Below are positions 3 through 8,724 of a DNA stretch of 9,265 nt, piece after piece (position 1 is the first letter of the stretch; the number at the start of each line of letters is the position of its first letter). The stretch is taken from assembly GCA_016929465.1 (NCBI GenBank), contig JAFGIT010000146.1, positions 1 through 9,265 of the forward strand. The letters run 5' to 3'. The DNA is from JAFGIT01 sp016929465 [NCBI: Candidatus Coatesbacteria bacterium]. Lineage in GTDB: Bacteria; B130-G9. Under the pieces are notes generated by a model, which was given only the letters and a program-made list of their open reading frames with translations, had not been told where the DNA came from and made no database searches. The translations under genes and the position numbers were made by a program.

Positions 3-3000
3 TCGGCCAGCGACGCAGACCTTCTGGACAACACTTTCTCCAACAACACTGCTTACAACCAGGGGGGGGGAATCTACATCGGCGCCGGCTGTTCGCCGGC
101 AATCTCCTACTGCACTATATCTCCCAGCAACTCTGCGGTTCAGGGTGGCGGCATTCATGTGCCCAGCAATTACTTGGCTCCTATCGAAGACAGCACTGTC
201 TCTAACAACGTCGCCTCGTCCGAAGGCGGCGGGATATACATGGGGAGCAACAGCTCTCCACCTATCACCAATTGCGTGATTTCAAGCAATGAGAGCGGCG
301 GCATCTATATGGGAGACGATTGCTCGCCGTCAATCAGCGACTGCACGATAAATGGAAACACTGGCGCCGCTCGAGGCGGCGGAATCCGTTTGGGCGACAG
401 ATGTTCTCCGCCCATCGATTCCAGCTCTATATCTTATAACACCAGCTCCGGCGAGGGTGGCGGGATATATATGTCCGCAGACTGTTCGCCCTCAATCGCA
501 GACTGCGAGATCGATGGCAATAGCGCATCGACCAAAGGTGGAGCTGTCTATGTCGGCACGGATAGCATGCCAACTCTGACTAGCTGCTCAATGAACACCA
601 ATGCCTGCGATGCTGCAGGTGGGGCCGTGGCGTTCGTCGGTTCAGGTAATGCGGCGATCTGCAATTGCGAACTGAACGTCAACACTGCCGGCACAGATGG
701 GGGCGCCGTTCTTTGTGAAGCGGGTGCTTTCCCCAGCTTCTCCGATTGCGTAATGAAATACAACGAGGCCGGCCTGGACGGAGGCGCAATCGCGTGCTTC
801 GGCGATAGCGATCCCTTACTTCAGGATAACCTCCTAACAAACAATACGGCTGCAGAATACGGTGGTGCGATCTATTGCACCGGGGGATCGTCGCCTCGCC
901 TCGAAGCGGCGAACATGATCCAGTGGAATGAGGCGGGAGACGCGGGTGGTGCGATTTATTGTAGCGACAGCGCTTCTCCCTATGTGTTCTGTGCGCTGAT
1001 CGAGGAAAACTCGGCAGCAAATCTCCGCGGAGTGGGCGCGGGAATCGCCTGCTACTCCTCGAGTTCACCTGAATTTTGGAGCTGCACAATCGAGGGGAAC
1101 AGGAAAGGCGGCGTGTATGCTACCGGAGGCGCCGCTCCCACTCTAACAAACTGCATAATATGGAATAACGATGACGACGTGGCCGGGGTCAGCTGCGACC
1201 ACATCAGTCATTGCTGCATCGAGGACGGGGACTGCGCCGGGCAAAACGGCAACATCGCGGACGATCCCTTGCTGGTCCCACTACCGATGAGGCCCTGCTA
1301 TCTCTCCCATGAGGACGCCGGCCAGAGCCAGAGCAGCCCCTGCATTGACGCGGGATTGGGCCAGTCATCCGACTACGGTCTCGACCAATGCACGGTTAGG
1401 ACCGATGGAGAGTTGGATACAGGTGCAGTAGATATAGGCTTCCATTATGAATTAGGCCTCAACTCATACTATGTGGACAGCGAGAATGGGGATAACGGCG
1501 CCTCGGGCCGCAAAGGCTACCCCTGGAAGACGATCACGTACGCCACTACTCAAGAGGGCCTGGGCACCGAAGAGAGCCCCGCGTTCATTCAAGTTGCGCC
1601 GGGGCGCTACGACTATCAAAACAACCAGGAGAGCTTCCCGCTCAAGCCTCGTCCCTGGACCGCGCTACTAGGCGCGGGCGCTGAAGATGATGAGAACACC
1701 GGGAGCATCGTTGGCGACGGTGATCATCACGAGCCGTTCGATTTCAGAATCTATGGCGGCTATGCCTCGATCGGCGGCTTCTGGATAAGGGGGGGAGATG
1801 AATACGGAGTCAGGTGCGTGGACTCTCAGTCGGTCGTGATACACGACTGTGTCATAACAGAGGTCCAGGCCAAGGGTGACGGCGCCGTTTACCTGGAGAA
1901 CACCACCGACACCAGGCTCTTAAGATGCAAGATCACCGGGAACCAGGACACAAGCCACTCCGGGGCAGGCCTTGTATGTTTCTATGGAAATCCCAGAATC
2001 GAATACTGCGAGATCACAAACAACGATTCGGTGTACCGCGGAGCCGGCGTCATACTGGACCGATCAACAGCGACCTTCTTGGGCTGCATAATATCCGGCA
2101 ACACATCCGGCGAGTCCGGCGCGGGAGTCAGTACGACCGCGGGCTTCACAATGAGGGACTGCACGATCTCCGACAACACCGCCGACGGCACCTATGCATA
2201 TTACGGAGGCGGTATGATGATCAGCCGCTCCTACTCGGGAGAACGACTATTGATCAACTGCGTGATCTCCGGAAACAAGGTCACTAGAGGGGCAGGGACC
2301 AGCGTCGGTGGCGGAGCGATGTTTGGTGGACCGGTCGTGGCCTTGGACTGCATTTTCGAAGGCAATGTATGTGATGCACACGGAGGCGCGATCTACTTCG
2401 ACCAGGACTCAACGCAGAGATTAGAGAACTGCCTTATAATCGGCAACTCCGCAGGAACAGGGAGCTCGGCTGGCGGCGCCATTTACTGCCACGGAACCTC
2501 CAATCCCGAATTGATCAATTGCACGATCGAGGGCAACGACACAACCGGCGTCTATGGCACGACTGGCACTGGTCTGACACTCACCAACTGCATTGTCTGG
2601 AACAACGGAGACGACATTGTCAACGTTGATTGCTCGCAGATAAGCCACTGCGACATCCAGGATGACGACTGCAACTATGACGAGGACATCAACCTCAACC
2701 AGGACCCGATCTTCATGCCTCGGGATCCCAACGATATAGACGCCTACACCGGCTACTACTTGGCCCAGCAGGATGCTCAGGCCGGCGACAGCCCATGTAT
2801 AAACGAAGGGGACGATCAGGCGTCTGCATACGGCCTCGAGGCATATACGACCTGCACCGACGGTCGCTTTGACGAGGACGTCGTTGACATCGGCTACCAC
2901 TATCCTGAGGCTTATGAGGGCGAGGACAACACCTATATCGAGCTCATCTCATTCGAGGCAATTGCGGACGGGAGCGCCATCAAGGTCACCTGGGAAACCG

Positions 3001-3335
3001 GGACGGAGATCGACAACGCCGGTTTCGACCTCTACCGAACCGAGGCAGGCGAGATCTCGACCGCCAAAAAACTCAACGACCGGATGATCCCCGCAAGGGG
3101 CAGCGCGGCGGCTGGAGCGAGCTACGAGTTCGCGGATAGAAACGTCAAGATAAGTGTAATCTATAGCTACTATCTGATCGACATCGACACATCGGGCAAG
3201 GCAACGGCGCATGGGCCGGTCGAGGCTCGCGTCCTATCGAGGCCGGTCGTCATCCCAGACGAGCGGCTGAGGCCCGAAGAAGAGAGCAAACAGGGAGATA
3301 TCTTCAATGTCCCGGATTTTGCCGGGGCCATATAA
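3..3335 (+). CDS. Giant parallel beta-helix surface protein, 5' end missing
   Basis: The frame is open from base 3 to the TAA at 3333-3335, giving 1110 visible residues. The start lies upstream of the window, and the GTG at 159 is internal because the same repeats continue before it. The protein is probably secreted or surface-exposed and structural or adhesive, not enzymatic. Bases 3-1140 encode rungs of about 27 residues of the type GGGIYM..DCSPSI.DC.I..N, typical of right-handed beta-helix (Pmp-like) proteins. Bases 1141-1455 encode a closing module (NCIIWNN, SPCIDAG, DIGFHY) like the 'choice-of-anchor Q' type. A DUF1565-like opening follows at 1462-1680 (YYVDSENGD, PWKTITYA, FPLKP). A second helix follows at 1720-2580, a second closing module at 2581-2905, and an Fn3-like domain at 2931-3233. 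The last 33 residues are charged and match no sorting signal I know. A complete paralogue follows 47 nt downstream. The fold is clear; the function and anchoring mode are unknown. Confidence 0.92.
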   Translation, partial: SASDADLLDNTFSNNTAYNQGGGIYIGAGCSPAISYCTISPSNSAVQGGGIHVPSNYLAPIEDSTVSNNVASSEGGGIYMGSNSSPPITNCVISSNESGGIYMGDDCSPSISDCTINGNTGAARGGGIRLGDRCSPPIDSSSISYNTSSGEGGGIYMSADCSPSIADCEIDGNSASTKGGAVYVGTDSMPTLTSCSMNTNACDAAGGAVAFVGSGNAAICNCELNVNTAGTDGGAVLCEAGAFPSFSDCVMKYNEAGLDGGAIACFGDSDPLLQDNLLTNNTAAEYGGAIYCTGGSSPRLEAANMIQWNEAGDAGGAIYCSDSASPYVFCALIEENSAANLRGVGAGIACYSSSSPEFWSCTIEGNRKGGVYATGGAAPTLTNCIIWNNDDDVAGVSCDHISHCCIEDGDCAGQNGNIADDPLLVPLPMRPCYLSHEDAGQSQSSPCIDAGLGQSSDYGLDQCTVRTDGELDTGAVDIGFHYELGLNSYYVDSENGDNGASGRKGYPWKTITYATTQEGLGTEESPAFIQVAPGRYDYQNNQESFPLKPRPWTALLGAGAEDDENTGSIVGDGDHHEPFDFRIYGGYASIGGFWIRGGDEYGVRCVDSQSVVIHDCVITEVQAKGDGAVYLENTTDTRLLRCKITGNQDTSHSGAGLVCFYGNPRIEYCEITNNDSVYRGAGVILDRSTATFLGCIISGNTSGESGAGVSTTAGFTMRDCTISDNTADGTYAYYGGGMMISRSYSGERLLINCVISGNKVTRGAGTSVGGGAMFGGPVVALDCIFEGNVCDAHGGAIYFDQDSTQRLENCLIIGNSAGTGSSAGGAIYCHGTSNPELINCTIEGNDTTGVYGTTGTGLTLTNCIVWNNGDDIVNVDCSQISHCDIQDDDCNYDEDINLNQDPIFMPRDPNDIDAYTGYYLAQQDAQAGDSPCINEGDDQASAYGLEAYTTCTDGRFDEDVVDIGYHYPEAYEGEDNTYIELISFEAIADGSAIKVTWETGTEIDNAGFDLYRTEAGEISTAKKLNDRMIPARGSAAAGASYEFADRNVKISVIYSYYLIDIDTSGKATAHGPVEARVLSRPVVIPDERLRPEEESKQGDIFNVPDFAGAI
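62..70 (+). repeat. G9 homopolymer inside the first beta-helix gene
   Basis: Nine consecutive G residues form part of the codons for the Gly-Gly-Gly of a conserved GGGIY rung. In-frame poly-G tracts in coding DNA can change length by slipped-strand replication and switch a surface protein on or off; poly-G tracts in chlamydial pmp genes are a known parallel. Whether this tract varies is not shown here. Other Gly triplets in the gene mostly use mixed GGC/GGA/GGT codons, so the pure run is not forced by the protein sequence. Confidence 0.8.
144..633 (+). repeat. Degenerate ~81-bp tandem repeat encoding beta-helix rungs
   Basis: Successive rungs begin with GGGI or GGA and are mostly 27 residues (81 bp) apart. 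They carry the consensus G-G-G-I-Y-M-x3-C-S-P-x-I-x-D-C-x-I-x2-N. One rung near 234-305 is shortened by about three residues. The repeats are diverged at DNA level, so this is a protein-fold repeat and not a recent DNA amplification. Comparable but less regular rungs continue through the rest of this gene and the next one. Confidence 0.75.
2931..3233 (+). repeat. Fn3-like C-terminal domain, copy 1
   Basis: This 303-bp segment encodes a 101-residue domain (TYIELISFEA, VTWET.TEIDNAGFDLYR, LNDRMIPARG, YYLIDI, HGPVEA). It aligns without gaps to 7013-7315, with about 68 of 101 residues identical by hand count. The DNA includes a 22-nt exact match (2979-3000 with 7061-7082). The W.T..E..N.GF..YR pattern is that of Fn3-like domains that often sit just before the C-terminus of bacterial secreted proteins. 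Confidence 0.85.
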
Positions 3336-3347
3336 GGATTGAGCGCC

Positions 3348-3386
3348 ATGATTCAAACAATACTTAATGCGAAGGAGGAAGCATGA
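3348..3386 (+). CDS. Possible 12-residue leader mini-ORF
   Basis: An ATG at 3348 opens a 12-codon frame (MIQTILNAKEEA) that ends in TGA at 3384-3386 and overlaps the ATG of the next gene in an ATGA arrangement. An AAGGA at 3334-3338, overlapping the stop of the upstream gene, lies nine bases before it. Translation of this frame would pass ribosomes through the strong AAGGAGG of the downstream gene, so it could couple translation of the two large genes. Such short frames arise often by chance, and the peptide has no recognisable feature. Confidence 0.15.
   Translation: MIQTILNAKEEA
3372..3378 (+). promoter_or_regulatory. Strong Shine-Dalgarno site of the second beta-helix gene
   Basis: AAGGAGG lies four bases before the ATG at 3383, a near-perfect anti-16S match at slightly short spacing. 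Together with the signal peptide that begins at once after this ATG, it fixes the start. I see no terminator in the 47-nt gap after the upstream stop, which suggests co-transcription of the two paralogues. Confidence 0.8.
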
Positions 3387-6300
3387 AGGCGGCGATAAAT
3401 TCTAAGAGACCCAGGATCAGCAGGTTTGTCATCTCGGCGCTGGCTAGTGCGGTGCTGACTGCTGCTATATTGGTTCTAAGTGCTGCGGCAGACACGAACT
3501 ACTACGTTAATCGAGACGACGGAGTGGACACCTCCAGTAGGGATGGTCAATCCTGGGCTAACGCCTGGAAGTCGATTGGATACGCTATCGACCACACAAG
3601 TCAGGGGCCAGGCGATCTGGCCATCATCAACGTTTCCGACGGGGTGTATGACAGGAGCATAGAAGGTAGTAGCGGGTTCCCTCTCTATCCGAAGGAGTAT
3701 CAGACGATCAGGCACGAAGGGGGAGGGACTCTGCGAATCTCCGCGCAGAACTCGAATCGTGTTTTGCACTACGACAGCGTGAGGAGTGATGCCAAGCTGG
3801 AGGGAATCGTCATCCAGTATGGTGGCAGCTCCACCACCGATCGTGGCGGGGGGATATTCATGACCAACTCAGCACTTGTGATCGAGGACTGCCAGGTGGA
3901 GTACTGCGACGTCTATGCCACAGGCTCGCATAGCAGACGCGGCGCGGGTGGTGGAATCTACTGCGATCGCGGTTCAGTCCTGACAATGACTGACTGCAAG
4001 CTCCTTGACAACACATCACCTCGCTACGGCGGCGGCATATTCGTTGATGATCACAGCGAGTGCAATCTGACCAACGTCGAGTTCGACCTCAACACGACGA
4101 GCTTCGGTGGCGGAATTATGCTCTGGGACAGCTCGGATGGGACGTTCACAGACTGCGTCTTCACGAGGAATGTGGGAACCAACGGCGGCGCGCTGCGCTG
4201 CAACGAAAGCTCTGCGAGCCTGATCCATTGCTATATCGGGACGGATAGTGGGGGGACAGCGGAGCTGGGCAACACGTCCATCCACGGTGGGGGACTGACG
4301 TTTCACGAGAACGCGACAGGTTATGTGGACAACTGCTTGATCAAATACAACAAATGCACGCGAACGAGTGGCGGCGTGAACATCGCCTATAAATCCCAGG
4401 TCAAATTCATGAGAACTGAGATCTCAAATAATGAGCTCTATGACCATGATCTATATTATCACGGCGCAGGCATGCGTATCGTCGATGGCAACACGGTTGA
4501 TTTTATCAACTGCAAAATAAACAACAACACCATGGCCAAAGATGGCGCTGCGATGGCGATCTTGGGGGAGAACAATAGCGTTCGAATATCCACATCTGAA
4601 CTGAAGGGTAACGAGGCCAGCTACGCAGATGCCGGAGCAACGAGAGGCGGGGCAATATACCTCGTGGGTAATAGCGAACTATCTATAGAGAAATCCGACA
4701 TAACCGATAATATATCGAGTTCCGGACATGGAGGTGCCTTCTACATAGAAAGCGCCCCAATAGGCTCAATCAAGGAGTGCCTCTTCGACAATAATGAGGC
4801 TGGAAGGTCAGGAGGAGCCATCCGGATTTACGAGGCCACAGAAGATTTCGAGATCGAGCATTGCATATTCAACCAAAACCAGGCTGATACAGGCCGCCAG
4901 GCGGAGTATGGAGGTGGCGCGCTCAATGTGGTCGAAGGTAATCCGAGCGTTTTGAACTGCCTCATCATTCTCAATTCTGTCGAGGTCGAAGGAAATGGCG
5001 GAGGAATTCTCTGTCAGGCGGCGGGTTCTCCCAGGCTGACCAACTGCACGATAGCTGATTCGGTTGGCTATGGCGTATATGCCGACGCTGGTGAGGAGTG
5101 TGTGCCCGAGCTTCTGAACTGCATCGTCTGGGACAATAGCCTGGGTGGTATAGCGAATGTCGATTGCTCCAATGTGTCCTATAGCGACATTCAAGGCGGG
5201 GATTGCTGCGGACAGAACGATAATATCTGCGACCCCCCCCTGTTCGAGACCGGTTCTGGAGATTATGGCAACTACTGCCTCTCCCAGACCGACTCTGGCC
5301 AGTCCGAGCAGAGTCCATGTGTCGATACCGGGCAGGGAAATGCCTCCGACCATGGCCTTCATACCTATTCAACCCGCACAAGCGGCGCATACGATGACAA
5401 CGCCATGGATATGGGCTATCACTATGAGAGTTCGCTCCACTACTTCTATGTCGATGCGACCATCGGCGACAACAGCTCTTACGATGGCAGATCACCGACG
5501 ATTACAGGCGATTCAGGGCCCTGGAAGACAATCACGTGGGCGCTTGATACCGAAAATCTAGGGATTAGCAACGAGAACCATCCGATAACCATCTTCGTGG
5601 CCGCCGGGGATTATGACATCGACATGGGCGGCGGCGACCATGAGACATTCCCACTGAAGCCCGAGACGCAGTACATTTCTCTGATCGGCGCCGGCTGCGA
5701 CATTACAACGATCAACGCCTATGAAGAAGGCACAGACCACACCGCGATCGTCGTCGAGAAGAACCCGGATACCGAGCTCAAGCGAGACCATTTCACAATC
5801 AAGGGCTTCAAGATCACCGGGGCGGACAACACACCGCCGGGTCTCGGCAATGGAGGCGCGATACGCGTGACCGAGTCTGACTATCTGACGCTCGACGGCT
5901 GCGACATAGACAACAACTTGGCCAAATCCGGAGGCGGCATCTACTTCCGCGACAGTCTGGGCAATGAAATTCGCAGCTGCCTGGTCAGGAACAACACGGC
6001 AGAATCTGGCAGCGACGGCTACGGTGGCGGCGTCTGCATTTCAGACGGGTCATATTTCTTCGCTGAGTTCTCCAGCTTCACGGGCAATTCTGCGAGCATG
6101 GGTGGCGGCGGGGTTGCCCTCAGGAACCACACGGAGGATGACCCCCAGTGCAGGACGGAGATCAATGGGTCCGTATTCATGGCCAACGAGGCTGTTAATG
6201 GTGCTGGAGTCTTTGCCTATCTGAACTCCGTGGCTACGGTCTTCAACACATCTCTCACGGGTAATGCTGCACTTGGGGATGGCGGGGCAGTGTACTGCGA

Positions 6301-7417
6301 GGACAACTGCAACCTCGCCCTCACCTACGCCCACATGACGGGCAATGAGGCCGCCTACCACGGGGGCGCTGTCGCCTGCGTGGATTACTGCGAGCCACGC
6401 TTGAACTTCTGCTGGGTCGCGGATAACAGCGCGGGGCTATCCGGTGGGGGCCTATACTATAAGGACCACTGCAACCAGACGAGTGAAGAGGGCAAAGTGC
6501 TGAACACCGTCATTGCTAACAATGTGGTCACCGGAGGGGAGGGAAATGGCGCCGCAATATATTGCGAGATCGCATCAAGCCCATGGATCTGGTTTTGCAC
6601 GATTGCGGATAACACGCCGACAGGTGTTCATGCCGTTCTCAATTCCTACCCCAAACTAGACCATTCGATACTCTGGAACAACGGTGACGACGTAGATGGC
6701 ATCGATTGTGGCGAGGACCATATCTGCTACTGTGACATCGAGGACGGGGACTGCAATGGACAGAATGGCAACATCTCCGCGAATCCACTATTCGTGCCTC
6801 GCGATCGCGAAGATCCAGATAACAAATGGACCGGCTACTATATCGCTCAATACCCCGCCCAGAGCTGCCAGAGCCCATGCTTCGATGCCGGGGCGGATAC
6901 TGCGGAGTCCTATCGTCAGAATGCCTGGACGACTTGCACTGATGGCGCCCGCGACGAGGGCATGGCCGACCTGGGCTGTCACTTCAGAGACAGCTATGAG
7001 GGCAGCGACGACACCTACATCGAGCTAGTGTCCTTCGAGGCAAAGGCGAATCGGCAAGCGATCAAGGTCACCTGGGAAACCGCAACCGAGATCGACAATG
7101 CAGGCTTCAATCTTTACCGAGTGGAATCGGGCGAGCGCTCGACCGCGAGAAAACTCAATGACCGAATGATCCCCGCAAAGGGCAGCACGGCGGAGGGCGC
7201 CAAATACGAATTCATCGACAGTGACATACGGCCGGGAACGACCTATGAATACTACCTCATCGACATCGCAACCGATGGCAGGATGTCTGTGCATGGGCCG
7301 GTCGAGGCGGAATTCACGGTGTTGCCAATGGATCCAATCAGGCGTGATGTTCTTCCTAATCGGGGATTGCTGTCAATCATGCGAAGCCGGATCCTATCAG
7401 TACTCCCAATAATCTGA
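3383..7417 (+). CDS. Secreted giant beta-helix protein with two helix units and an Fn3-like domain
   Basis: This complete 1344-residue protein is a paralogue of the truncated gene upstream. Residues 1-36 are a Sec signal peptide: a basic n-region with K8, R9, R11 and R14, a hydrophobic core at 15-33, and AAA before a likely cut at 36/37. Unit A opens with YYVN..DG and WANAWKSI (about 40-115), continues with GGGIY/GGGIF rungs (about 155-575), and closes at 578-680 (NCIVWDN, SPCVDTG, DMGYHY). Unit B repeats this: YFYVD..IGD and PWKTITWAL at 687-775, rungs to about 1090, and a closing module to about 1200 (WNNGDDV, SPCFDAG, DLGCHF). The Fn3-like domain spans 1211-1311. The last 30 residues are basic and hydrophobic (PIRRD, MRSRILSVLPII) and differ wholly from the paralogue's tail. 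Many Cys residues recur at the same place in the rungs. The protein is presumably exported and acts in adhesion, the cell envelope or glycan binding. The role is inferred from fold only; no lyase active site is recognisable. Confidence 0.95.
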   Translation: MKAAINSKRPRISRFVISALASAVLTAAILVLSAAADTNYYVNRDDGVDTSSRDGQSWANAWKSIGYAIDHTSQGPGDLAIINVSDGVYDRSIEGSSGFPLYPKEYQTIRHEGGGTLRISAQNSNRVLHYDSVRSDAKLEGIVIQYGGSSTTDRGGGIFMTNSALVIEDCQVEYCDVYATGSHSRRGAGGGIYCDRGSVLTMTDCKLLDNTSPRYGGGIFVDDHSECNLTNVEFDLNTTSFGGGIMLWDSSDGTFTDCVFTRNVGTNGGALRCNESSASLIHCYIGTDSGGTAELGNTSIHGGGLTFHENATGYVDNCLIKYNKCTRTSGGVNIAYKSQVKFMRTEISNNELYDHDLYYHGAGMRIVDGNTVDFINCKINNNTMAKDGAAMAILGENNSVRISTSELKGNEASYADAGATRGGAIYLVGNSELSIEKSDITDNISSSGHGGAFYIESAPIGSIKECLFDNNEAGRSGGAIRIYEATEDFEIEHCIFNQNQADTGRQAEYGGGALNVVEGNPSVLNCLIILNSVEVEGNGGGILCQAAGSPRLTNCTIADSVGYGVYADAGEECVPELLNCIVWDNSLGGIANVDCSNVSYSDIQGGDCCGQNDNICDPPLFETGSGDYGNYCLSQTDSGQSEQSPCVDTGQGNASDHGLHTYSTRTSGAYDDNAMDMGYHYESSLHYFYVDATIGDNSSYDGRSPTITGDSGPWKTITWALDTENLGISNENHPITIFVAAGDYDIDMGGGDHETFPLKPETQYISLIGAGCDITTINAYEEGTDHTAIVVEKNPDTELKRDHFTIKGFKITGADNTPPGLGNGGAIRVTESDYLTLDGCDIDNNLAKSGGGIYFRDSLGNEIRSCLVRNNTAESGSDGYGGGVCISDGSYFFAEFSSFTGNSASMGGGGVALRNHTEDDPQCRTEINGSVFMANEAVNGAGVFAYLNSVATVFNTSLTGNAALGDGGAVYCEDNCNLALTYAHMTGNEAAYHGGAVACVDYCEPRLNFCWVADNSAGLSGGGLYYKDHCNQTSEEGKVLNTVIANNVVTGGEGNGAAIYCEIASSPWIWFCTIADNTPTGVHAVLNSYPKLDHSILWNNGDDVDGIDCGEDHICYCDIEDGDCNGQNGNISANPLFVPRDREDPDNKWTGYYIAQYPAQSCQSPCFDAGADTAESYRQNAWTTCTDGARDEGMADLGCHFRDSYEGSDDTYIELVSFEAKANRQAIKVTWETATEIDNAGFNLYRVESGERSTARKLNDRMIPAKGSTAEGAKYEFIDSDIRPGTTYEYYLIDIATDGRMSVHGPVEAEFTVLPMDPIRRDVLPNRGLLSIMRSRILSVLPII
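5233..5240 (+). repeat. C8 homopolymer in the second beta-helix gene
   Basis: Eight C residues span the codons for Asp-Pro-Pro-Leu in the first closing module (ICDPPLFE). The reading frame is intact through the run, so the tract has no frameshift in this sequence. It is a second candidate slippage site in the pair of paralogues. Confidence 0.7.
7013..7315 (+). repeat. Fn3-like C-terminal domain, copy 2
   Basis: This is the partner of 2931-3233 and has the same 303-bp length. It carries TYIELVSFEA, VTWET.TEIDNAGFNLYR, LNDRMIPAKG, YYLIDI and HGPVEA. Differences cluster in surface-like positions and in the stretch just before YYLIDI, while the core strand motifs are unchanged. By eye it is the best conserved part of the two proteins, pointing to a constrained common role such as export or attachment, or to gene conversion. 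Confidence 0.85.
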
Positions 7418-7472: not shown

Positions 7473-7477
7473 AGGAG
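7473..7477 (+). promoter_or_regulatory. Shine-Dalgarno site of the 44-residue peptide gene
   Basis: AGGAG lies five bases before the ATG at 7483, in an otherwise A-rich 65-nt spacer after the beta-helix gene. It is the main evidence, together with peptide layout, that this short frame is translated. I see no clear terminator hairpin in the spacer, so the peptide could be read from the upstream transcript. Confidence 0.7.
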
Positions 7478-7482
7478 AAGAC

Positions 7483-7617
7483 ATGAAAGAAACGAAGCCG
7501 TACGAGAAGCCTGAAGTGACGACGATAGCTAGCGACCATATCATCACGATTCTCGGTCCTAGCATATCATGCACGGGCTTCGGGGGCTCCGCCGCCGATC
7601 TGCCGATACCTGAGTAG
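7483..7617 (+). CDS. 44-residue peptide, possible RiPP-type precursor
   Basis: The frame begins at an ATG with AGGAG upstream and ends at TAG 7615-7617. The N-terminal part is charged and polar (MKETKPYEKPEVTT), the middle is hydrophobic (IITILGP, residues 20-26), and the C-terminal 18 residues (SISCTGFGGSAADLPIPE) are rich in Ser, Gly and Ala with a single Cys30. There is no signal peptide. This leader-plus-core layout, with a YxxPxV element near the N-terminus, is like that of precursors of ribosomally made, modified peptides; YxxP elements bind the recognition protein in lasso peptide systems. The rest of the lasso leader signature is not convincing, and no cyclase, radical SAM enzyme, YcaO, protease or ABC transporter is in view. 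It could instead be a small regulatory or structural peptide. The gene lies 65 nt after the giant beta-helix gene. The coding call is fairly firm; the precursor role is inference. Confidence 0.68.
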   Translation: MKETKPYEKPEVTTIASDHIITILGPSISCTGFGGSAADLPIPE

Positions 7618-7890: not shown

Positions 7891-7896
7891 GGGGAG
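7891..7896 (+). promoter_or_regulatory. Shine-Dalgarno site of the nitrilase gene
   Basis: GGGGAG lies six bases before the ATG at 7903 and supports that start, from which the protein begins directly with the first beta strand of the nitrilase fold (MKVGFLQFCPQRG). No convincing sigma-70 promoter is visible further upstream. Confidence 0.55.
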
Positions 7897-7902
7897 TGTT
7901 GA

Positions 7903-8724
7903 ATGAAGGTTGGATTCCTGCAATTCTGCCCGCAAAGGGGGCAGGTTAAGGAGAATCTCAGAACGATCATAGGCCTGATCGACGGTCAAGAGTGCGACCT
8001 GTGGGTCCTTCCCGAGCTGTGTAACACGGGCTACCTATTCTCGGATCCGGATGAGGCCTGGGATCTTGCGGAGGAGATCCCATCTGGTAGCACCACCGAA
8101 AAACTCGCCGAGATATCCGTGCGCAACCGATCCGCCATTGTCGCCGGCATCGCCGAGCGAGATGAGGACCAGCTCTATAATTCGTCCATACTCGTCACCC
8201 CGAAGGGGGACATCTTTCGCTATCGGAAGCTGCATCTCTTCGGCTATGAGAAGGAAGTCTTCTCCCCCGGGGACCGCGAACCAGAAGTATTCAATATTGG
8301 GCGGGCGATGGTCGGTATGATGATCTGCTTCGATTGGTACTTCCCTGAAACCGCAAGGATCCTCATGCTGAAGGGCGCCCAGATAATTTGCCATCCCTCC
8401 AATCTGGTTCTTCCATATTGCCAGAAGTCGATGCCCACACGCTGTATCGAGAATCGCGTCTTTGCGATTACCGCAAACCGTATCGGCAGCGAGGTCGTTG
8501 GGAATCGGGAGCTCGTCTTCACCGGTGGCAGTCTGATAGTCGATCCGCTGGGAGAAGTTCTGGCAAAGGCGTCCGAAGATTCGGAAGAATTCAAGATTGT
8601 CGATATAGTCCCTAAGATATCTTCCGACAAGAAACTTACCAGGATGAACGAGCTTCGCTCGGACAGGAGAGTTGAGCTCTACGGTGAGCTCCTCAGAAAC
8701 GGGGATTCCGATGGTTCTGAATAA
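7903..8724 (+). CDS. Nitrilase-superfamily carbon-nitrogen hydrolase
   Basis: The 273-residue protein has the usual length of a single-domain CN-hydrolase and all its catalytic residues: Glu38 in LPELCNTGY, Lys109 in YRKLHLF, and the nucleophile Cys142 in MMICFDWYFPE. Glu116 in YEKEVFSPGD matches the second, supporting Glu of the family. Members hydrolyse non-peptide C-N bonds of amides, carbamoyl amides or nitriles through a Cys-acyl intermediate in the cytoplasm. The FDWYFPE and HPSNLVLPYC..SMPTRCIENRVFAITANR segments resemble the branch annotated as beta-ureidopropionase, N-carbamoyl hydrolase or general amidase. The substrate cannot be read from sequence. There is no signal peptide or extra domain. 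The TAA overlaps the next ATG by one base (TAATG), implying coupled translation with the downstream membrane protein. Family assignment is firm; specificity is open. Confidence 0.93.
   Translation: MKVGFLQFCPQRGQVKENLRTIIGLIDGQECDLWVLPELCNTGYLFSDPDEAWDLAEEIPSGSTTEKLAEISVRNRSAIVAGIAERDEDQLYNSSILVTPKGDIFRYRKLHLFGYEKEVFSPGDREPEVFNIGRAMVGMMICFDWYFPETARILMLKGAQIICHPSNLVLPYCQKSMPTRCIENRVFAITANRIGSEVVGNRELVFTGGSLIVDPLGEVLAKASEDSEEFKIVDIVPKISSDKKLTRMNELRSDRRVELYGELLRNGDSDGSE

Follow-up and report, generated by a model that had tools for sequence, protein, structure and literature searches.

The locus examined here raises the question of whether an ORF of only 44 codons encodes a RiPP precursor and, if so, which enzymes would act on the peptide and what connects it to the large surface proteins encoded beside it. 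The window, meaning the whole stretch of DNA that was analysed, is 9265 nt in length and is the entire contig C275 of a MAG (3.19 Mb, 423 contigs, 86% complete). We consider it likely that the ORF is a member of a multicopy RiPP precursor family, matured in trans by an LPP-like pathway with an additional radical SAM step.

A 44-codon gene with the layout of a RiPP precursor

The original prediction, made from the letters of the window, described an ORF with a good ribosome site, a YEKPEV element, a hydrophobic stretch running to LGP and a Gly/Ser/Ala-rich end containing one Cys. The frame has exactly the predicted coordinates, from ATG to TAG, the ribosome site is an AGGAGA string just ahead of the ATG, and all of the described elements are present in the translation (Table 1). 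Of 25 full-length copies of the gene described below, 23, the window copy among them, have a GGAG, GAGG or AGGA string no more than 20 nt from the start chosen. The product has the form of a RiPP precursor, a short peptide with a motif-bearing leader and a separate core, between which we infer the border given in Table 1. No promoter or terminator signal around positions 7483 to 7617 rose clearly over chance level, and the window gave no match to Rfam. Downstream of the peptide gene lie genes for a carbon-nitrogen hydrolase and then an FtsK-like protein, the FtsK-like match being just under the Pfam cut-off.

Table 1. Features of the window, of the maturase locus and of related loci
Feature	Position or size	Strand	Basis or remark
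RiPP-precursor-like peptide gene, 44 aa	7483..7617	+	ATG to TAG, translation MKETKPYEKPEVTTIASDHIITILGPSISCTGFGGSAADLPIPE; paralogues and homologues
Shine-Dalgarno-like AGGAGA	7473..7478	+	Sequence; 4 nt 5' of the ATG
YEKP, YxxP recognition motif of the leader	7501..7512	+	Aligned block of 25 copies; putative RRE partners
Putative site of leader removal, after T22 (Tyr+15)	7548..7549	+	Suggested by analogy with LppA only
Conserved core LGPSISCTGFGGS	7552..7590	+	Copy alignment
C-terminal tail AADLPIPE, atypical; the usual tail is short and ends in Cys	7591..7614	+	Comparison with other copies
Right-handed beta-helix protein, 1344 aa, directly upstream of the peptide gene	3383..7417	+	Pfam Beta_helix 148.9 bits; signal-peptide-like N-terminus (by eye)
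Fn3-like C-terminal domain of the 1344-aa protein	7016-7315	+	Fn3-like tail profile
Second beta-helix protein, truncated 5' by the contig end	3..3335	+	Pfam Beta_helix 183.1 bits
Fn3-like domain of the second beta-helix protein	2934-3233	+	Fn3-like tail profile
HprK-related protein	402-418 aa		Maturase locus
C25 peptidase	1075-1086 aa		Maturase locus; PorU/gingipain-like
Stretch common to G000 and G003	L068 about 2458-2594; L071 about 7891-8048	-	Sequence comparison
Lasso-type cluster	L072 (G002:C54) 1132-4815	+	B2, PqqD-like RRE, 660-aa cyclase-like protein
52-aa ORF with WERP motif	L072 4766-4924	-	Opposite strand to the lasso genes of G002:C54

The ORF belongs to a multicopy peptide family

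The first sign of a second place with the common core came from a DNA search within the window's own genome. With tblastn, 16 places were detected in the same genome at E<=10, and 14 of these, including the window copy, reached E<=2.9e-4, giving 13 further copies. A profile (A1) was built from 13 copies, and a profile search of four genomes of the phylum (one family and three genera, the window's own genome included) returned 29 places, 15 in the own genome and two, seven and five in the three relatives. Homologues with the frame kept are present in all four genomes.

Twenty-six of the 29 places hold full-length copies; at C209:5625 the core is altered, and at C354 and G002:C74 the leader is missing. 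The full-length copies combine a variable leader containing Y-E-x-P with a near-constant core, LGPSLSCTGFGGS, and mostly end in Cys. Their consensus is Y-E-x-P-x-V-x-T-(L/I)-x-x-x-x-(I/L)-x-(S/A/T/N)-x-L-G-P-S-(L/V/I)-S-C-T-G-F-G-G-S-x-x-C. Within an aligned block of 25 copies, the motif Pro is invariant (25/25) and the Tyr is found in 24; two positions beyond the Pro, every copy has Val or, in two cases, Ile, in agreement with a YxxPxV leader. Position Tyr+15 is only ever Ser, Ala, Thr or Asn in these 25 copies, and Tyr+13 only Ile or Leu. Twenty-five of the 26 full-length copies retain the core Cys, the other (G002:C66; L083 1283-1402) having Tyr instead. Cys is also the terminal residue at 28 of the 29 places. 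The sole exception is the window copy, the last eight residues of which are AADLPIPE, and which may be a divergent or decaying member of the family. At the two leaderless places (C354 and G002:C74; L024 4180-4260 and L084 540-632), the core is intact and in frame, joined to unrelated upstream codons; these are either truncated pseudogenes or shuffled cores.

The codon test took 25 of the 29 places, G002:C66 (Cys to Tyr), C209:5625 (altered core) and the leaderless C354 and G002:C74 being omitted. Pooled over pairs of these ungapped copies, pS was 0.67, pN 0.089 and pN/pS 0.13 in the core, and pS 0.71, pN 0.36 and pN/pS 0.51 in the leader; the pairs are not independent, so the ratios are descriptive. 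Synonymous sites are near saturation and the core protein is held, which argues for selection acting on the protein and not on the DNA, and more strongly in the core than in the leader. The 44-residue ORF is a real gene, and the ratio near one that the original prediction had named as evidence against itself was not seen in the core. One check proposed with the prediction, whether residues 7 to 26 are more conserved than residues 27 to 44, gave the reverse, the C-terminal block being better conserved than the leader; apart from this and the atypical tail of the window copy, the prediction was essentially right. Stronger conservation of the core than of the leader fits a system in which many precursors lead to one product.

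None of 13 copies matched a family in NCBIfam and neither of two copies tried matched Pfam; the peptide profile found no match in a PDB sequence search, nor did one typical copy in tblastn searches of phages and plasmids. A match of one of two copies tried against PHROGs (E 0.26) was meaningless, and 12 stretches of viral contigs that fitted the search pattern included no relative. In a collection of 84,980 species, the pattern GPS[LV]SCTGF found nine stretches and five relatives, in G001 and G003 only, a result limited by the pattern and by the own genome perhaps lying outside the collection. A leader-only profile detected no other family with the same leader, the next match having an E of 1.07. 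The peptide family, including its SCTGFGG core, was not found in the literature covered, many subscription papers lying outside that coverage.

The peptide genes adjoin genes for Fn3-tailed surface proteins

The suggestion of a tie to giant surface proteins held for all full-length copies. Every full-length peptide (26/26) has a same-strand neighbour, present as a gene or as a remnant, with a common Fn3-like tail. The profile of this tail was built from three sequences and detected 54 domains in the four genomes. In 21 of the 26 cases the Fn3-like domain precedes the peptide gene on the same strand by no more than 566 nt; the remaining five peptides are upstream of the Fn-tailed gene, with the domain 462-2130 nt off. 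Two copies on C73 have in common one Fn-tailed gene remnant (a 90-codon open frame), and copy C209:10669 lies inside the next gene when the latter is given its longest possible frame by a mechanical rule; the start so assigned is provisional.

The accompanied proteins are mostly beta-helix-like, as judged by a glycine-pattern heuristic and confirmed with Pfam for the two in the window, and some bear C25 peptidase domains. Since the beta-helix or C25 bodies vary, the common factor is the Fn3-like tail. Overall, C25 (gingipain-like) peptidase matches number nine, five, seven and 16 in G000 to G003, some with the Fn3-like tail of the beta-helix proteins.

A C-terminal Arg is found in 30 of 52 Fn-tailed proteins, compared with 24 of 156 other large ORFs chosen mechanically as background (p 1e-8). 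The tails came from 52 of the 54 Fn-like domains, C417 and G001:C135 (stop inside the domain) being omitted. We rejected this residue as a sign of a link to the peptide; it is common with a peptide downstream (15/21) and without one (15/31), which makes it characteristic of this class of protein without tying it to the peptide. It is possible that the Arg is a sorting or processing trait of the Fn-tailed surface-protein class. A search for the T9SS translocon component SprA matched neither the four genomes nor the control genomes and was uninformative.

One candidate maturase locus in each genome

The original prediction proposed that the modifying enzymes may be encoded away from the peptide, and a single candidate locus of this kind is present in every one of the four genomes. 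It encodes a discrete PqqD/RRE protein, an RRE-radical SAM-SPASM fusion protein, an HprK-related protein, a C25 peptidase and an archaeal-type SpI (partial in G001). None of the contigs that bear these loci carries a peptide copy, although the assemblies are drafts and single copies could be close across contig ends. The gene order RRE, RRE-radical SAM-SPASM, HprK-related, C25 and SpI is unbroken in G002 and G003, and fits both other genomes: in G000 the locus is split over C64 and C360, which are not joined, and in G001 the contig ends inside the SpI gene, the start of which is readable. Peptides and maturase locus co-occur in all four genomes, a sample with no genome lacking either half, and an RRE and a modification enzyme that may act on the peptide are encoded in every case. 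Homologues with no modification gene, which had been named as grounds for doubt, were thus not encountered. As for the partners suggested, an RRE and a radical SAM protein are present in 4/4 genomes, the lasso-type combination of B2, RRE and Asn-synthetase-like cyclase was found in G002 only, and no YcaO protein was found in any of the four.

Each genome has one discrete PqqD domain (90-96 aa) and one fused PqqD domain, with a third in the lasso cluster of G002. The fused protein is over the PqqD and SPASM cut-offs in all four genomes, and over the Radical_SAM cut-off in both genomes scanned (G000 and G003); its CX3CX2C motif and SPASM cysteine pattern are intact in 4/4. There are 11, seven, 15 and 13 SPASM matches per genome, so another enzyme could act, and only the RRE fusion singles out the enzyme of the locus. 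Because RREs diverge strongly in sequence, others may exist beyond the reach of the PqqD model.

The HprK-related protein has a P-loop and scores 57.1 of 200 bits with TIGR04352 and 26.7 of 33.3 with Pfam, and HPr kinases in the PDB match it weakly (E 0.037-0.048). Predicted structural models of this protein (pLDDT 38) and of the radical SAM enzyme (pLDDT 50.6) were both too poor for use. The archaeal-type SpI model TIGR02228 has one match per genome, which belongs to the locus in G000, G002 and G003 and, in G001, is close to the beginning of C197; the match is over the cut-off in three of the four, with 46.9 of 51.85 bits in G002. Ser46, His84 and Asp103 are kept in both SpI sequences compared. 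The five operon genes include no exporter, NTP transferase or MsbA-type transporter.

Five small ORFs around the maturase locus contain a Y/WxxP-like string. Two of them have matches across genomes (L068 999+ and L168 102+), and both are antisense to operon genes, leaving no convincing alternative substrate near the locus. Upstream of the RRE gene, G000 and G003 have in common a stretch that starts with GCGTTGGTCTCGGTGCCT and has at its end a hairpin-like sequence followed by a run of T (Table 1). It gave no match to Rfam, and is possibly an undescribed small RNA.

Proposed leader recognition and maturation pathway

In PDB sequence searches, the discrete RRE of G000 gave weak matches, the best to LppB (9x8z, E 0.034) and the next to PqqD and TfuB1. 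For the fused RRE of G001 the best match was the lasso RRE TfuB1 (6jx3, E 8.5e-4), with TbiB1 (5v1u) third; PqqD chains (PqqC/D in the latter case) stood second in both searches. In lasso leaders YxxP is well established as the element bound by RREs, and motifs of the W/Y/LxxP/L/I type have been ascribed to PqqD and the sactipeptide RRE StsC as well, according to the available text of PMC12710340. In LppB, D70 holds the leader Tyr and N33 clamps the Pro region (available text of PMC13381572); these residues align with an Asp and an Asn kept in the four discrete RREs, as read from the alignment with the numbering offset by eye. Judged by sequence, the locus RREs weakly resemble the lasso and LPP RREs that bind YxxP leaders, and the matches to these RREs, though weak, are the best ones, which supports the leader-RRE logic of the original prediction. 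Between the discrete RRE of G003 and the lasso RRE of G002, BLASTP detected no similarity.

We propose that the YExP leader would dock on the discrete PqqD-like RRE and on the RRE fused to the radical SAM/SPASM enzyme. The latter enzyme may modify the core LGPSLSCTGFGGSxxC, most likely via Cys in a thioether-type linkage. A cyclophane link needs a side chain and the Gly-Gly after Phe offers none; thioether chemistry is for this reason favoured over aromatic cyclophanes. The HprK-related enzyme may phosphorylate a core Ser, and the operon's archaeal-type SpI would cleave off the leader, perhaps at the small residue found at Tyr+15. In LppA the cut follows T-1, 15 residues past motif Tyr-16 (available text of PMC13381572), and by analogy the always small residue at Tyr+15 and the constant Ile or Leu at Tyr+13 make a cut at Tyr+15 plausible. 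The product would then be exported and, to judge from gene order, act at the envelope alongside the Fn3-tailed surface proteins of the adjoining genes.

It is also conceivable, but in our estimation improbable, that the modified peptide is a dedicated common ligand or anchor of the Fn3-tailed proteins, that one maturase locus produces an identical modified core from many scattered genes, and that its PorU/gingipain-like C25 peptidase couples the peptide to the C-terminal tails of these proteins, 30 of 52 of which end in Arg, or trims the tails with it. If true, this would make a RiPP an attachment part for surface proteins and not a free natural product.

The proposed trans-matured pathway would add a RiPP family from a poorly sampled phylum, in which LPP-like recognition and cleavage are combined with a radical SAM/SPASM enzyme and the precursors are dispersed beside giant surface proteins. 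As the peptide genes and the enzymes lie apart, cluster-based mining probably misses this family. Because the core hardly varies, copies are numerous and a single enzyme set is present, a role for a RiPP at the cell surface becomes a testable question.

Alternative explanations

The peptides might instead be unmodified small accessory proteins of the Fn3-tailed proteins, acting as chaperone, regulator or assembly partner, with the RRE/radical SAM locus serving another substrate. The linkage of all 26 full-length copies to an Fn-tailed gene or remnant would suit such a role, as would the separate contigs of the peptides and of the maturase whose action on them we infer. We nevertheless hold it to be unlikely, given that YxxP is a known RRE motif, that the locus RREs are the sole PqqD-family RREs detected in three genomes, that the surroundings of the locus offer no convincing alternative substrate, and that the core is a constant Cys/Gly/Ser-rich block and not a folded domain. 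It is quite unlikely, too, that the pathway is LPP-like only, so that the RRE, HprK-like kinase and SpI phosphorylate and cleave the peptide whilst the radical SAM enzyme acts elsewhere. Counterparts of the three core kinds of protein in LPP systems, that of the kinase being putative, are indeed present together with a YxxPxV leader (available text of PMC13381572), but the radical SAM enzyme has its own RRE and its gene sits between those for the discrete RRE and the HprK-related protein in 4/4 genomes, only one of 26 full-length copies lacks the core Cys, and neither an NTP transferase nor an MsbA-type transporter is among the five operon genes.

We regard it as very unlikely that the family consists of lasso precursors, which B1/B2/C proteins would cleave and cyclise. 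A right-sized B2-like match was obtained in G002 only (72.4 bits); Transglut_core3 gave four further matches, all partial, at 20.8-32.3 bits in frames of 659-705 aa, although one, inside a 666-aa frame of G003, is over the cut-off (32.3 of 26 bits). YxxP marks lasso leaders too (available text of PMC12710340) and G002 has a lasso cluster, but the lasso genes are adjoined by a separate WxxP candidate precursor, and the constant 13-residue core of the present family has no Asp or Glu for a ring. Finally, a chance ORF or a conserved non-coding DNA or RNA element would be in keeping with the small size and with the lack of a Pfam or NCBIfam match. The chance of this is practically negligible, given synonymous change near saturation with a fixed protein core, the presence of ribosome sites and a window without an Rfam match.

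Comparison with known systems

Our preferred reading, of a dispersed RiPP precursor family matured in trans, has features in common with several known pathways, and the system would appear from its sequences to combine an LPP pathway with one of the radical SAM/SPASM RiPP type, following the one-enzyme-many-precursors logic of the prochlorosins. In LPPs (LppA/B/K/S, Bacillota), a discrete RRE, an HprK-like kinase and an archaeal-type signal peptidase act on a YxxPxV leader, according to the available text of PMC13381572; the present system has counterparts of the RRE, the peptidase and the leader and a putative one of the kinase, and LppB is the best PDB match of the G000 discrete RRE. Unlike the LPPs as described in that text, the present family has an added RRE-radical SAM-SPASM enzyme and C25 peptidase, a Cys/Gly/Ser core, no FET ahead of the likely cut, an operon without NTP transferase or MsbA exporter, and many dispersed precursors in another phylum. 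We do not assign the system to the LPPs because the operon has no transferase or exporter and the HprK score is under the cut-off.

With sactipeptides and ranthipeptides the system has in common an N-terminal RRE followed by radical SAM and SPASM domains, and a Cys-containing core. The precursors are, in contrast, not clustered with the enzyme, and the linkage chemistry is proposed by us from the core. NCBIfam models matching the fused enzyme include StsB, PapB and AlbA, but among the best 25 of 87 and 84 families no curated maturase model was passed: the best scores were 128.3 (G000) and 133.6 (G003) of 265 bits, and StsB (117.9 of 625 bits) and PapB (95.1 of 340) were likewise below their cut-offs. 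The enzyme, scoring far under the cut-offs, cannot be placed in any of the curated radical SAM maturase families among these best 25. A search of plasmids with the G003 radical SAM enzyme matched 395 records, all at <60% identity; the 20 matches listed comprise PqqE, mycofactocin, pseudo-SAM and unnamed radical SAM proteins, some without annotation.

Prochlorosin cores vary, whereas in the present family the core is near-constant and the leader variable; the enzyme class and leader also differ from those of the prochlorosins. The likeness is that of many precursors to one enzyme set, as with the promiscuous ProcM (available text of PMC10783134). Lasso systems with a discrete B1 RRE (fusilassin/TfuB1 type) resemble the present one in the YxxP leader and the RRE similarity, but the core is unlike a lasso core and a right-sized B2-like protein is found in one of the four genomes. 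As a proper B2 is confined to that genome, we do not class the system as a lasso pathway.

The lasso-type cluster of G002 (contig C54) encodes a B2 protein that scores 73.9 bits with NF033537 (cut-off 33) and a 660-aa cyclase-like protein that scores 374 bits with the lasso cyclase model (cut-off 525). A further gene has an HprK-like P-loop, recognized by eye, and no Pfam match. The 52-aa ORF with a WERP motif could be the precursor of this cluster, and its Trp, against the Tyr of the peptide family, recalls the W/Y discrimination described in the available text of PMC13381572.
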